DNA of 64,000 nucleotides from Pedobacter polaris. Its GTDB lineage: Bacteria > Bacteroidota > Bacteroidia > Sphingobacteriales > Sphingobacteriaceae. Position numbers and translations under genes: made by a program. Under the pieces are notes generated by a model. It ran no database searches, was not told where the DNA came from, and worked only from the letters and a program-made list of their open reading frames with translations. Position 1 is the first letter of the stretch; every line of letters begins with the position of its first letter. The stretch covers positions 248,001-312,000 of the forward strand of contig NZ_SWBR01000001.1 in assembly GCF_005116505.1 (NCBI RefSeq), written 5' to 3'. Positions 15,361-19,906 of this stretch are shown here, piece by piece.

Positions 15361-15458
15361 TATAAGAAATTTTTATTCATAAATTTCTTTACCCAAGCAA
15401 CCTTTCTTAAAAAGTATCCGTAACTGCAAATATCAAACAACTCCTAATTGAGAATATT

Positions 15459-16010
15459 TTGCTAACACCCGAACTCATCAATGGCTGTATAGATAAAGAT
15501 AGAAAGAGTCAAAAAGAACTCTATCGGCAGTACTATGGCTATTCAATGCGAATTTGCTTGCGTTATGCAAAAAGTAAAGATGAAGCAGTTGAAATGGTAA
15601 ATGACGGATTTATGAAAATGTTTATGAATATGCACAAATATGACAGGCTGCGCTCATTTAATGCATGGATTAGTACCATAATGATTAACACATCGATAGA
15701 TTATTATAGAAACCGAATAAGAAAAATAGAAATGGAAGAACTAAATGCTAATCACGAAGTGGAAGATAGTGAAAACATTCTTTCTCATTTAAATTATGAG
15801 GACCTTATTAAACTGGTTCAAAAACTCTCTACTGCTTACAGAACGGTATTTAACCTATTTGCAATTGACGGTTTTACACATGAAGAAATTTCAGAGATGC
15901 TATCTATTTCTATTGGCACCTCTAAATCTAATCTTTTTAAGGCTAGAGAAAATTTAAAAAAAATGTTGGCTGATGCACCTATTTCAGATCAACGAAAAAT
16001 TAATTATTGA
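15459..16010 (+). CDS. ECF-family RNA polymerase sigma factor
   Basis: 183 residues. Region 2 is visible as YGYSMRICLRYAKSKDEAVE and FNAWISTIMINTSIDYYR. Region 4 is LSTAYRTVFNLFAIDGFTHE followed by EISEMLSISIGTSKSNLFKA. The best start is a TTG at 15459, since no in-frame ATG lies upstream before a stop, and it gives the family-typical opening MLTPELINGCIDKDRKSQKE. It heads a tight operon with a membrane-anchored barrel protein, YceI, DUF5777 and a Rieske lipoprotein. The next gene starts 1 nt after its stop. Regulation by that neighbour, as an anti-sigma-like partner, is inferred from context. Confidence 0.88.
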   Translation: MLTPELINGCIDKDRKSQKELYRQYYGYSMRICLRYAKSKDEAVEMVNDGFMKMFMNMHKYDRLRSFNAWISTIMINTSIDYYRNRIRKIEMEELNANHEVEDSENILSHLNYEDLIKLVQKLSTAYRTVFNLFAIDGFTHEEISEMLSISIGTSKSNLFKARENLKKMLADAPISDQRKINY

Positions 16011-16011
16011 G

Positions 16012-17196
16012 ATGAAAGAGTTGAATGATAATGATTTTGATCAGGCTTTTAAAACTAGGATAACTGAAGAGTTTCCTGAGTTTGAGGAAGAGTCATGGTT
16101 AAAGATGGAGAAGAAGTTACGTAAAAGAGAAAGGGTTACATTTTTAAGATATGCAAGTATCTTATTACTGTTGTTATCATTTGGCGCTACATTTTATATT
16201 TTAAATAGAAAGAATGAAGCTAAAACAGATACAGTTGTAGTAGAAAACATCAAAAATAGAACTAAAGTTAGCCCGCAATTAACTAAACCATCACAAGAAG
16301 AAGTGGCATTAGATGATAAATCAATAGCTAAAAACATTAAACAAACTCCTAATGTGGTTAATCAAGGTTTTGAAGTTATTCAATCTAATATTGCTCCTGC
16401 TAAAAATCCAATACCAATAGCAAATACTCCTGTTCAAAATTCATCAAATGCTAATATCAAGAACAATCAAGAAGCAGTAGTTGTATCACAAGGGCAACCT
16501 GCAGATCAAGCTCAACAAGATGTAATTGCTAGTTCAGATCCTGTAATAAAAGGAATAGATTTAGTAAAACCAAAAACTGAAATACAAACAAAAGTTAAAA
16601 GAAAAATCCCAATTAGTGTAGCCATATTAGCAGGGCCTGATTTTAGCTCTACAAGTTCACTTATTGGTGGTAAAAGTGGAGTAACTATTGGATTTACAGT
16701 TGGAATTGGTTTAACCAAGAAACTAAGTTTACAAACCGGAATGAGTTACGGAAGTAAAAATTATTCTGCCAGTGCTTATGATTATACATTTAATAATCCT
16801 ACTGCCAATAAAGCAAATTTCTCTGGAATTAATGCAGCCTGTAAGGTTATTGAAATTCCACTAAGGGCTTCTTATAATATAAGTGAAAACCAAAAAAGAA
16901 GCATTGAGCTTAATGCCGGCCTCTCTACTTATTTGATGACAAAGGAAAATTATGTTTTTAAATATAATCAGACATTAAATAGAGCAGATAGAATTACAAA
17001 TGTCTCAAATGCTAATCAACATTATTTAGGCGTAATAGACTTGTCAGCAACCTATAATATTAAATTAAAGAATAAAAAATTCGCTTTTGGTATGGAACCC
17101 TACATCAAAATTCCTTTAACTGGCATAGGAGAAGGTAGCGTTCCATTAAAATCAAGTGGTATATCATTAAAACTTCGTTATGATTTCAATAAATAA
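16012..17196 (+). CDS. Single-pass membrane protein with C-terminal outer-membrane-barrel-like domain (candidate anti-sigma partner)
   Basis: 394 residues from ATG 16012 (an earlier in-frame ATG at 15973 lies inside the sigma gene). Residues 1-42 are charged and presumably cytoplasmic. A membrane segment spans 43-64 (LRYASILLLLLSFGATFYIL), followed by a long Asn/Gln/Pro-rich linker to about 195. A domain of alternating strands from about 200 onward (SVAILAGPDFSS, VGIGLTKKLSLQTGMSYGSK, GVIDLSATYNIKLK, ISLKLRYDF) resembles the OMP_b-brl_2 barrel fold. There is no cleavable signal peptide. Its position after an ECF sigma gene and its topology suggest a sigma regulator. That is inference, since no ZAS or FecR motif is seen. 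Confidence 0.65.
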   Translation: MKELNDNDFDQAFKTRITEEFPEFEEESWLKMEKKLRKRERVTFLRYASILLLLLSFGATFYILNRKNEAKTDTVVVENIKNRTKVSPQLTKPSQEEVALDDKSIAKNIKQTPNVVNQGFEVIQSNIAPAKNPIPIANTPVQNSSNANIKNNQEAVVVSQGQPADQAQQDVIASSDPVIKGIDLVKPKTEIQTKVKRKIPISVAILAGPDFSSTSSLIGGKSGVTIGFTVGIGLTKKLSLQTGMSYGSKNYSASAYDYTFNNPTANKANFSGINAACKVIEIPLRASYNISENQKRSIELNAGLSTYLMTKENYVFKYNQTLNRADRITNVSNANQHYLGVIDLSATYNIKLKNKKFAFGMEPYIKIPLTGIGEGSVPLKSSGISLKLRYDFNK

Positions 17197-17740
17197 GAAC
17201 AAATTCATATTGCTGGTGCTAGTCTGTTTGACATGTATATACAATGTAAATGCACAAACATTTATTAGTCGAAACGTTAAGATTAACATATTTTCATCAA
17301 CCCCTGTTGAAGATATTAAAGCAGCTAGTAATGGTGGAAATGCTGTTTTAATAACATCAACACAAGAAATAGCCGTACAACTGGCCATTAAAAGCTTATC
17401 ATTTGATAAAAAGTTAATGCAAGAGCATTTTAATGAAAACTACATGGAAAGTGATAAGTATCCATTAGCAAAGTTTAAAGGAAATTTTGAGCCAAAGATT
17501 GATTGGAGCAAAGATGGTGAATATACTGTTGCTGCAAAAGGAATCTTATCTGTTCATGGTATAGATCAACCGAGAACAATAACAGGAAAAATAGCCATCA
17601 AAAATGGAATGATAACTCTCAATTCTAATTTCGATGTTGCCTGCGCTGCTCATAAAATTAAAATCCCAAGTTTAGTGTTTACCAAAATAGCTGAAGTGAT
17701 AAAAATAAATATACAAGCAACATTAACCTCCCTAAAATAA
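17180..17740 (+). CDS. YceI-like family protein (exported)
   Basis: 186 residues. The signal peptide is cleaved VNA|Q. The body has the YceI lipocalin-like pattern: VKINIFSSTPVEDIKAAS, then AIKSLSFDKKLMQEHFNENY, SDKYPLAKFKGNF and KGILSVHGIDQPRTITGKI. YceI proteins bind amphiphilic isoprenoids such as polyprenyl quinones in a long barrel. It overlaps the preceding gene by 17 nt, so the two are probably translationally coupled. Next to a Rieske protein, a quinone or redox-related role in the periplasm is plausible but inferred. Confidence 0.85.
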   Translation: MISINKNKFILLVLVCLTCIYNVNAQTFISRNVKINIFSSTPVEDIKAASNGGNAVLITSTQEIAVQLAIKSLSFDKKLMQEHFNENYMESDKYPLAKFKGNFEPKIDWSKDGEYTVAAKGILSVHGIDQPRTITGKIAIKNGMITLNSNFDVACAAHKIKIPSLVFTKIAEVIKINIQATLTSLK

Positions 17741-17746
17741 ATTATT

Positions 17747-18694
17747 ATGACAAAGAATAAACTACTTATTTATCTCTTTTTAATAATGACCCTATTGGCA
17801 TTAAGAGCGAGTGCTCAAACAACAGATTCATTATTAAATTCTTTAGATAGCAGTAAAAAATATAACAAAGTTGAATCTACTTTTAAGGCGACTCATATTG
17901 TTTTATCACACTCTACAGAGACCCAGAAAAAGCATGATTTAGATTTAAGAATTCGTCATCATTTTGGAGATATAGGTGGGGAGTTTGGGAGTGCACATAC
18001 ACTTTATGGGCTTGATGTTGCCACAGACCTATTTATAGGATTAGATTATGGGGTAAGTGATAAATTAACTATTGGTATTGGGAGAAGCAAACACGATGAA
18101 CTGTTCGATTTATACATCAAACAAAAATTAATACAACAGAAAAAAGATAGCGGAATGCCATTTAATTTAACCTTTTTGGCTCAAATAGGATTAGTTGCTA
18201 GAGCACCTTTCGCTACCACAGAATTTGCCAATTATAGTGATAGAATAACTTATTTAATACAACCTATCCTATCTAGAAAATTCTCATCTAGAATTTCATT
18301 GCAAGTTATGCCATCTTATTTATTGCGTTCGGTAAGTGCAGATCAAAATGATCCTGAAAATATATTTTCTATCGGTTTCGCTGGCAGAGTTAAGCTTACC
18401 AAACGACTTTCTTTTGTTGCGGATTATACCATGGTTAGTGGCTTATCCAGACCAAATAATTTAACAGTTCCCTTATATAATCCATTGGGTGTAGGGTTAG
18501 AAATTGAAACTGGTGGGCATATTTTTTCGCTCAACTTTATGAACTCAGAATATATAACAGAAAATAATTTCATCGCCAATACAAAAAAATCATGGACAGA
18601 AGGTGGGGTTCGTTTTGGGTTTACGATCTCTAGAAATTTTAGTCTTTTTAAATCCAAGAACAAGGATCCTAATACAAAATCAACTATTTACTAA
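17747..18694 (+). CDS. DUF5777-like beta-barrel protein
   Basis: 315 residues with a signal peptide cleaved ASA|Q. The N-terminal part (ATHIVLSHSTETQKKHDLDL, IRHHFGDIGGE) and repeated amphipathic strands (KLTIGIGRSK, FSIGFAGRVKLTKRLSFVAD, GVRFGFTISRNFSLF) match the DUF5777 barrel family of Bacteroidetes. It is probably in the outer membrane; function is unknown. It follows yceI by 6 nt and precedes the Rieske gene by 12 nt, so it is part of the same operon. Confidence 0.7.
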   Translation: MTKNKLLIYLFLIMTLLALRASAQTTDSLLNSLDSSKKYNKVESTFKATHIVLSHSTETQKKHDLDLRIRHHFGDIGGEFGSAHTLYGLDVATDLFIGLDYGVSDKLTIGIGRSKHDELFDLYIKQKLIQQKKDSGMPFNLTFLAQIGLVARAPFATTEFANYSDRITYLIQPILSRKFSSRISLQVMPSYLLRSVSADQNDPENIFSIGFAGRVKLTKRLSFVADYTMVSGLSRPNNLTVPLYNPLGVGLEIETGGHIFSLNFMNSEYITENNFIANTKKSWTEGGVRFGFTISRNFSLFKSKNKDPNTKSTIY

Positions 18695-18706
18695 AAATTA
18701 AATTTT

Positions 18707-19168
18707 ATGGAACGTAACGAATTTATCAAATCATTAGGGCTTGGTATAGCCCTCGTATGCACTGGAAGTTGCATGACAGGATGTGGCAGCAAAGGTGATG
18801 ACCCTACCCCTGCGCCTGGTGGTGGAGGTGGAGGTGGCGGCTCAGCTGGCACAAAAGTTAATGTAGATTTAGGTTCACAGCTATTAACTGTTGGTGCATT
18901 TCTAGCATCAGGTGGTGTTTTATTTATCAGAACTGCAACTGGCAATGCAGCAAGTTCTTTTGTTGCTACGCAAGCTTCTTGCCCACATCAGGGAGGTGCG
19001 CTTAATTGGGTACAGGCAAGTAATGTTATTCAGTGTAGTTTGCACAGCTCTAAATATACTACTACCGGTAGCATTGTAGCACAACCTAATGATGGCGGAA
19101 CTACATCGGCATTAAAAGTATATGCATTAGCTGTATCTGGAACAACATTAACAGCAACAATATCTTAG
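18707..19168 (+). CDS. Rieske [2Fe-2S] domain lipoprotein
   Basis: 153 residues. The export signal is followed by Cys residues at 22 and 26 that could be lipidated (the TGSC and MTGC context). A spacer of eight consecutive glycines lies at about 38-45. The Rieske cluster motifs are CPH (91-93) and CSLH (109-112), giving the two Cys and two His ligands of a [2Fe-2S] cluster. The domain is small, as in arsenite-oxidase-type or Bacteroidetes stand-alone Rieske proteins. The disulfide Cys pair typical of bc1 Rieske proteins is absent. It is the last gene of the ECF-led operon; the electron partner is unknown. Confidence 0.85.
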   Translation: MERNEFIKSLGLGIALVCTGSCMTGCGSKGDDPTPAPGGGGGGGGSAGTKVNVDLGSQLLTVGAFLASGGVLFIRTATGNAASSFVATQASCPHQGGALNWVQASNVIQCSLHSSKYTTTGSIVAQPNDGGTTSALKVYALAVSGTTLTATIS

Positions 19169-19169
19169 T

Positions 19170-19211
19170 TTAGCCTTGGTCAGGTACATTTATGTATTTG
19201 ACCAAAGCTAA
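19170..19211 (+). terminator. Stem-loop ending the ECF-Rieske operon
   Basis: TTAGCCTTGGTCA (19170-19182) pairs with TGACCAAAGCTAA (19199-19211) at 12 of 13 positions, directly after the Rieske stop. The following T-run is weak (TTTC). Confidence 0.55.
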
Positions 19212-19387: not shown

Positions 19388-19906
19388 ATGAAAGTGTTTA
19401 AAAAATTAGTGCTATTAGTTTTGGTCTTCGTAACTTTTAAAGCAAATGCACAAACAGATAAAGCAACTACGACTAAAATTGTAGAAGAAAAGAATTATGT
19501 TTTTGTAGCTACATCAGCTACTCCATTAAATAGTGCAGATATTAATAAAATAATGAGTAGAATGCCCGGAAATATGAATGGTGGTAATATTAACTTATCT
19601 GGAAGTTCTTACGATGTTCGTGTGGTTAAAGATAGCGTTATAGCTTACCTTCCTTATTACGGACGGTCTTATTCTGCATCAATGAATCCAGATGAACAAG
19701 GTTATAAGTTTACGTCTACTGACTTTATTTATGATTCTAAAAAGAATAAAAGGGGCTGGAACATCAACATTAAAACTAAAGATGTTAGAGATAATGTACA
19801 AATGAATTTGAGCATCTCGCAAGGCGGATACGCCACATTGAGTGTAGTGAGTAACAATAAACAGTCAATAACTTATAATGGTTATTTGAGCGAGGTTAAA
19901 AAGTAG
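19388..19906 (+). CDS. DUF4251 domain exported protein
   Basis: 172 residues with a signal peptide cleaved ANA|Q. The body matches the DUF4251 layout: KNYVFVATSATPLNS, YDVRVVKDSVIAYLPYYGRS, GYKFTSTDFIYDS, then repeated strands to SITYNGYLSEVK. This is a small periplasmic beta-rich protein common in Bacteroidetes, function unknown. About 220 nt separate it from the Rieske gene. No clear promoter is recognised in that gap. Confidence 0.75.
   Translation: MKVFKKLVLLVLVFVTFKANAQTDKATTTKIVEEKNYVFVATSATPLNSADINKIMSRMPGNMNGGNINLSGSSYDVRVVKDSVIAYLPYYGRSYSASMNPDEQGYKFTSTDFIYDSKKNKRGWNINIKTKDVRDNVQMNLSISQGGYATLSVVSNNKQSITYNGYLSEVKK

Follow-up and report, generated by a model that had tools for sequence, protein, structure and literature searches.

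A conserved promoter motif links a putative Dma-type sigma/anti-sigma pair to a predicted envelope redox module in Pedobacter polaris

The analysed window, a 64,000-nt stretch of the Pedobacter polaris genome (4.57 Mb; assembly GCF_005116505.1, contig NZ_SWBR01000001.1, positions 248,001 to 312,000), contains a tightly packed five-gene operon (window positions 15459-19168, + strand), which encodes in this order an extracytoplasmic function (ECF) sigma factor, a Dma-type putative anti-sigma factor, a YceI-family protein, a DUF5777 protein and a Rieske lipoprotein. The operon is likely an autoregulated sigma/anti-sigma system that produces an envelope redox module, with electrons probably moved between periplasmic quinone and the outer membrane. 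It combines a known class of regulator with an apparently unreported target: neither this Dma target nor its conserved promoter was found in the literature searched, which also yielded no paper on DUF5777. An earlier note on this DNA had described the same genes as one co-conserved envelope operon with a redox flavour; all five genes, their positions and their order were confirmed by the list of open reading frames (ORFs) and Pfam matches, and the retention of the gene set in other genomes supports the operon as a unit.

In the proposed mechanism, the Dma-type protein would span both membranes, with its barrel in the outer membrane and its tether crossing the periplasm, and, judging from family and architecture, its cytoplasmic head would hold the ECF sigma factor inactive. 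Some outer-membrane signal would free the sigma factor, which would then read the sequence GCAACC-N16-CGTA in front of its own gene, a promoter predicted from conservation, and thereby raise expression of the whole operon. The predicted products are a quinone-carrying periplasmic YceI protein, a 12-stranded DUF5777 barrel in the outer membrane and a lipoprotein that would carry one electron, which is a Rieske protein in this operon and a small c-type haem protein in relatives. Together they probably shuttle electrons between quinone in the periplasm and something located at the outer membrane. The regulatory part of this model is well supported by conservation; the function of the module is what we infer.

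The predicted promoter (15397-15422, + strand), probably read by the operon's own ECF sigma factor, matches a motif that was read by eye from the sequences upstream of sigma genes. The window contains a single exact match, with 0.06 expected by chance. Across the fetched regions, 88 distinct matches have a spacer of 16, compared with 0-9 for each of the other spacers from 8 to 25 and 2-8 for the reversed pattern. Operons were scored for the motif with at most one mismatch and a spacer of 16 before the first gene in a family sample, which comprises 82 DUF5777 genes in 80 fetched regions (83 genes with the window) and 82 operons. These 82 genes were taken from 111 listed DUF5777 matches; the other 29 lay on short or fragmentary contigs, were weak or partial, were simply not chosen or, in four cases, were already included. 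The motif precedes 26 of the 27 operons that begin with the sigma gene (9 exact) and 14 of the 16 redox operons with a separate sigma-Dma pair nearby (all 14 exact), and was identified before 10 of the 39 operons in whose region no dma was found (8 exact). Wrong spacers of 13-15 and 17-19 occurred before the first gene only 0-3 times each. For both misses among the 16 separate operons (L144 and L172), an exact site precedes a gene omitted from the operon walk; for the single miss among the 27 (L161), the called start is over-long and encloses a site with one mismatch. A second, named sample, consisting of the best 80 of 578 DUF5777 loci, shares species with the family sample, and the two are not independent; here the motif was present in 13/16 sigma-first operons, 7/10 with a separate sigma-Dma pair and 10/54 without dma. 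No motif site lies ahead of the operon in six loci (L205, L250, L252, L271, L273 and L275). Of the 30 loci fetched by Dma matches, the window's included, 28 contain an exact site at least once, and of 98 sigma genes adjacent to dma, 55 have an exact site and 25 a site with one mismatch (wrong spacers, 0-2). Since the motif precedes both sigma-first and separate redox operons and wrong spacers are this rare, the sigma factor very probably controls the envelope module directly.

The sigma factor itself (183 aa, 15459-16010, + strand) matches PF04542 and PF08281 at 46.9 and 52.1 bits, both above the cut-off, and only the superfamily TIGR02937 exceeds its cut-off among the best 25 of 99 NCBIfam matches. 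The TTG start proposed earlier is confirmed, and most relatives inspected carry TTG, GTG or ATG at roughly this position. Of 107 sigma factors placed on a tree, 93 form one clade (support 0.946), which includes the window's sigma factor and contains 81 of the 82 motif-bearing sigmas; the only one outside is the faulty ORF of L141. This locus holds a sigma gene but is counted among the 39 family-sample operons without dma because its ORF loses the reading frame as in L218. In L218, an apparent sigma-Dma fusion was rejected because the reading frame of its 718-aa ORF is lost once the sigma portion ends.

An extended form of the motif without mismatch occurs only once in the genome, at window positions 15396-15424, so that the operon probably makes up most of the sigma regulon, as judged from sequence. 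A candidate second promoter in this genome (G000:C12:78227) was rejected, since an ORF of the opposite strand covers it. In two other loci, a Lipoprotein_15 (PF03640) gene confirmed by Pfam stands behind the same motif and divergent from the sigma-Dma pair (L072:5110-5955 and L132:7387-8241), and genes of similar size are found elsewhere; the names of this family occur in three papers of the literature searched. A PF03640 search of the P. polaris genome gave no match, and the controls gave none either.

The sigma ORF is followed after 1 nt by the gene for the Dma-type protein (394 aa, 16012-17196, + strand). Its AlphaFold2 model (mean pLDDT 71.7) contains helices at aa 6-18 and 26-69 and a barrel at aa 201-392; aa 72-185, with pLDDT below 50 except at residue 177, are taken as a disordered tether. 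Alignment and model delimit a predicted cytoplasmic head (aa 1-46, 16012-16149), in which D10, F13, W29 and L36 are invariant among 23 sequences (the window and 22 relatives), and the hydrophobic segment at aa 47-64 (16150-16203), which lies inside the second model helix, is the predicted inner-membrane helix. The outer-membrane barrel domain (16612-17187) matches PF13568 at 33.4 bits (cut-off 27) and resembles OmpA in a structure search (TMt 0.67), while a sequence search of solved structures returned nothing meaningful for Dma. A dma gene adjoins 98 of the 109 distinct sigma genes examined, in fetched loci that were chosen by DUF5777, YceI or Dma matches.

A 2026 paper (PMC13088901) describes the Dma family as an anti-sigma domain, a transmembrane helix, a long disordered tether and a barrel, encoded beside an ECF21 sigma gene. 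Because this four-part order and the ECF sigma neighbour match that description, the second protein is placed with the Dma family, and binding of the sigma factor by its head is predicted. The earlier suggestion of a new kind of sigma regulator is therefore refuted, as a family with the same four parts has been published; the second protein remains the probable regulator of the adjacent sigma factor. By the same architecture, the putative Dma-type inhibitor probably bridges the inner and outer membranes. Dma1 was found by a vesicle screen in a gut species (via PMC13088901), deletion of Dma2 places its own operon among the most induced genes, and the signal sensed by Dma2 is still to be found according to that paper. 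The operon resembles the Dma1/Das1 and Dma2/Das2 pairs of Bacteroides thetaiotaomicron in the putative anti-sigma head, single membrane helix, tether, C-terminal barrel and adjacent ECF sigma gene. It differs in its target: the known Dma proteins act on vesicles and polysaccharide loci (PMC13088901), whereas a YceI-DUF5777-Rieske module is encoded here, and YceI and DUF5777 are both absent from the main text of that paper. A 'split Dma' was noted at L317:951-3169 (same genome, contig C9), where a sigma gene is followed by the gene for a 249-aa protein with a Dma-like head, helix and tether and without a barrel, as judged by eye, and then by that for a separate 266-aa barrel-like protein.

Control of the module may also be exerted in trans, for instance in Pedobacter paludis (L200), whose redox operon is separate from the sigma-Dma pair. 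Dma was searched for in 12 genomes, 11 of which had been picked for a redox operon without a neighbouring sigma gene (G317 has one), and matches were found elsewhere in all 12, although only weak ones in G394. The sigma gene beside the best Dma match has the motif at its start in exact form in six genomes and with one mismatch in four; it is missing from the remaining two, G394 and G210, the latter of which has a site in the opposite orientation. Four of the ten motif-bearing genomes (L292-L295) have a site that overlaps the earliest start called for the ORF or falls within it. No motif site accompanies the weaker Dma matches of these genomes (L298-L300).

The three remaining genes encode the putative redox module. 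The YceI-family periplasmic lipocalin (186 aa, 17180-17740, + strand), whose ORF overlaps the end of the Dma-type ORF by 17 nt, matches PF04264 at 37.5 bits (cut-off 23.7), and its profile gives weak matches to YceI and polyisoprenoid-binding chains among solved structures (best E 4.5e-7). YceI proteins bind isoprenoids, often ubiquinone-8 (literature cited in PMC9113575). By analogy, the protein probably carries an isoprenoid quinone, which makes the lipid or quinone handling suggested in the earlier note plausible. The DUF5777 protein (315 aa, 17747-18694, + strand; PF19089, 281 bits) is a predicted outer-membrane barrel of 12 strands (model pLDDT 90.3). A sequence comparison with the PDB gave no match up to E 1, and structure searches returned the barrels of KdgM, FapF and NanC at Z 17-18; electron-conduit barrels are absent from the matches listed, which excludes nothing. 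H71 and H258 are invariant in 68 DUF5777 sequences, which is worth a look and no proof. In a class-wide sample of 247 genomes, 220 had a match to the family, as did none of 14 control genomes.

The Rieske [2Fe-2S] lipoprotein (153 aa, 18707-19168, + strand) matches PF00355 at 31.5 bits (cut-off 20.3), with b6f-type Rieske domains as the closest matches in a profile search (best E 7e-20). Its ligands C92, H94, C110 and H113 (C-x-H ... C-x2-H) are invariant in all 16 aligned sequences, counting that of the window; in one sequence, four extra residues are inserted ahead of the second His. C26 is likewise invariant in 16/16 sequences and is probably the lipidated Cys. A crude lipobox count gave 58/61 Rieske and 72/84 haem proteins, but part of the haem-protein assignments wrongly fall on haem motifs, and the count is too rough for conclusions on surface exposure. 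The N-terminus (18707-18790, MERNEFIKSLG) resembles a Tat signal that lacks the twin arginine. Three of its residues, R3, E5 and F6, are invariant in the 16 sequences, and TatC is present. A variant Rieske protein with C-x6-H in place of C-x2-H at the second ligand pair is encoded at L053:2347-2781; this spacing is found in 18 of 19 variant-flagged Rieske loci, several of which are the same gene twice, and all of which lie beside DUF5777-YceI.

The closest named relatives by DUF5777 belong to Pedobacter. The five-gene order is identical in three relatives from the genus (L068-L070) and in further genera of the family, and recurs in named Pedobacter, Mucilaginibacter and Arcticibacter. The possibility raised earlier that the genes are not found together elsewhere was checked, and the five genes co-occur in several genera. 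In Dyadobacter (L255) the order is sigma-Dma-Rieske-DUF5777-YceI, and in other loci a small haem protein precedes YceI-DUF5777, with the sigma-Dma pair divergent (e.g. L127 and L130) or downstream (L080 and L159). YceI adjoins DUF5777 in 70 of the 83 genes of the family sample and window, and dma lies within 6 kb of 44 of these 70 vs none of the other 13, at least one of which has a divergent YceI gene (L188). In the named sample, YceI is in the same-strand run in 77/80 loci and dma within 6 kb in 25/80. The 70 YceI-linked loci encode a Rieske protein only (39), a small haem protein only (26), both (1) or neither (4), the corresponding counts in the 77 named YceI loci being 19, 41, 5 and 12; over 164 DUF5777 genes, they are 60, 81, 5 and 18. 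At L117:6978-7421, a tRNA_anti-like (OB-fold) protein (PF12869) is encoded between the haem lipoprotein and YceI, and proteins of similar size are found in many loci across the class. The DUF5777 cluster at L188:4140-9482, which contains the divergent YceI gene, a small haem protein, a cytochrome c, a 4Fe-4S protein and NrfD, is a possible respiratory form of the module, and the DUF5777 cluster of L184 includes an ethylbenzene-dehydrogenase-type haem protein. The reading as a redox module is based on this mutual replacement of Rieske and haem proteins, which is suggestive, and on the presence of NrfD and cytochrome c in L188.

Several observations weigh against an autoregulated operon driving a redox module. 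The upstream sequences from which the motif was read belong to the scanned set, which leaves the separate operons as the independent test. By the rule used, 18 of the 98 dma-linked sigma genes lack the motif, and the motif is not enriched genome-wide (8 matches vs 13 for the reversed control, spacers 15-17; with one mismatch, 15 vs 34). For 54 of the 80 named DUF5777 loci, the region yielded no dma gene; the motif is present in just 10 of the 54, so that the redox module often operates without the sigma-Dma switch. The Rieske/haem exchange corresponds to approximately three changes on the DUF5777 tree (mean for shuffled labels, 45.7) and thus to few independent events, and several haem calls rest on the C-x(2-4)-CH motif alone, with Pfam backing only some. 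Sigma binding, sequestration and transcription are predictions here, and contact or the passage of electrons among DUF5777, YceI and the Rieske protein is something that we infer.

Outer-membrane electron transfer and lipid-radical detoxification are the candidate biochemical roles of the module. In the latter, which we consider a real but less probable alternative, YceI quinol would quench peroxyl radicals of oxidised outer-membrane lipids and the Rieske or haem lipoprotein would re-reduce the YceI quinone, with DUF5777 as outer-membrane access or anchor and the Dma barrel as a sensor of membrane damage. The YceI family membership and conserved residues are consistent with this role, as is the reported lowering of lipid peroxidation in Burkholderia by the YceI lipocalin BcnA and the cytochrome b561 LcoA, for which re-reduction of the BcnA quinone is a proposed model (PMC9113575). 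Both systems pair a YceI lipocalin with a redox protein, but the partners differ: BcnA is associated with a b561, whereas the P. polaris operon encodes a barrel, a lipoprotein carrier and ECF/Dma control. No cytochrome b561 was identified among the five genes and three nearby ORFs scanned, the rest of the genome not having been searched for it. Furthermore, NrfD and the 4Fe-4S protein in L188 and the ethylbenzene-dehydrogenase-type protein in L184 suggest respiration rather than repair.

The resemblance of the DUF5777 model to KdgM and NanC porins and FapF would also fit an assembly or transport unit, in which DUF5777 is a small-molecule porin, YceI an isoprenoid lipid carrier and the Rieske or haem protein merely a redox sensor. 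This appears doubtful, as a passive porin requires no such protein and one is encoded in 66 of the 70 YceI-linked loci. Electron transfer is favoured over passive transport because of the YceI family, the b6f-like Rieske domain, the DUF5777 barrel and the L188 and L184 clusters. That the sigma-Dma pair is a mere neighbour by descent without control of the downstream genes is very unlikely: Dma linkage does change approximately 19 times on the DUF5777 tree, the pair coming and going, but separate redox operons have this motif in front of them as well, and the linkage recurs in several arrangements.

The porin-cytochrome conduits of Shewanella and Geobacter combine an outer-membrane barrel with multihaem cytochromes; the P. 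polaris operon shares the barrel and redox proteins and differs in having a single [2Fe-2S] centre, or one haem in relatives. No multihaem cytochrome gene was identified among the five operon genes by ORF translations and Pfam. A more speculative and rather improbable extension is that Dma directly reports the redox state of the outer membrane and controls a minimal electron conduit widespread in Bacteroidota, which would consist of the 12-stranded barrel, the quinone lipocalin and an interchangeable Rieske or monohaem lipoprotein and would operate without multihaem cytochromes. In Cellvibrio, Cbp2D and Cbp2E contain a YceI-like quinone domain, to which Cbp2D adds c-type cytochrome domains (PMC8981238). 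The combination of a YceI-type domain with cytochrome c is similar, whereas these proteins are modular, have cellulose-binding domains and lack a barrel.

This Dma/sigma pair has a predicted regulon of small size, a sharply defined promoter motif and a target module that is conserved in genera amenable to culture, Pedobacter among them. Both the signal to which Dma responds and the role of DUF5777 thereby become open to direct testing within a single strain.

The operon is followed by a stem-loop (19170-19211, + strand) that had been described as closing it. The fold is stable (-22.4 kcal/mol, z -4.9), although a T tract as strong as that of a typical terminator is lacking and the terminator scan did not include it. 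Directly 3' of the operon, a DUF4251 gene (19388-19906) was identified, which has the same placement in L068 and L069.

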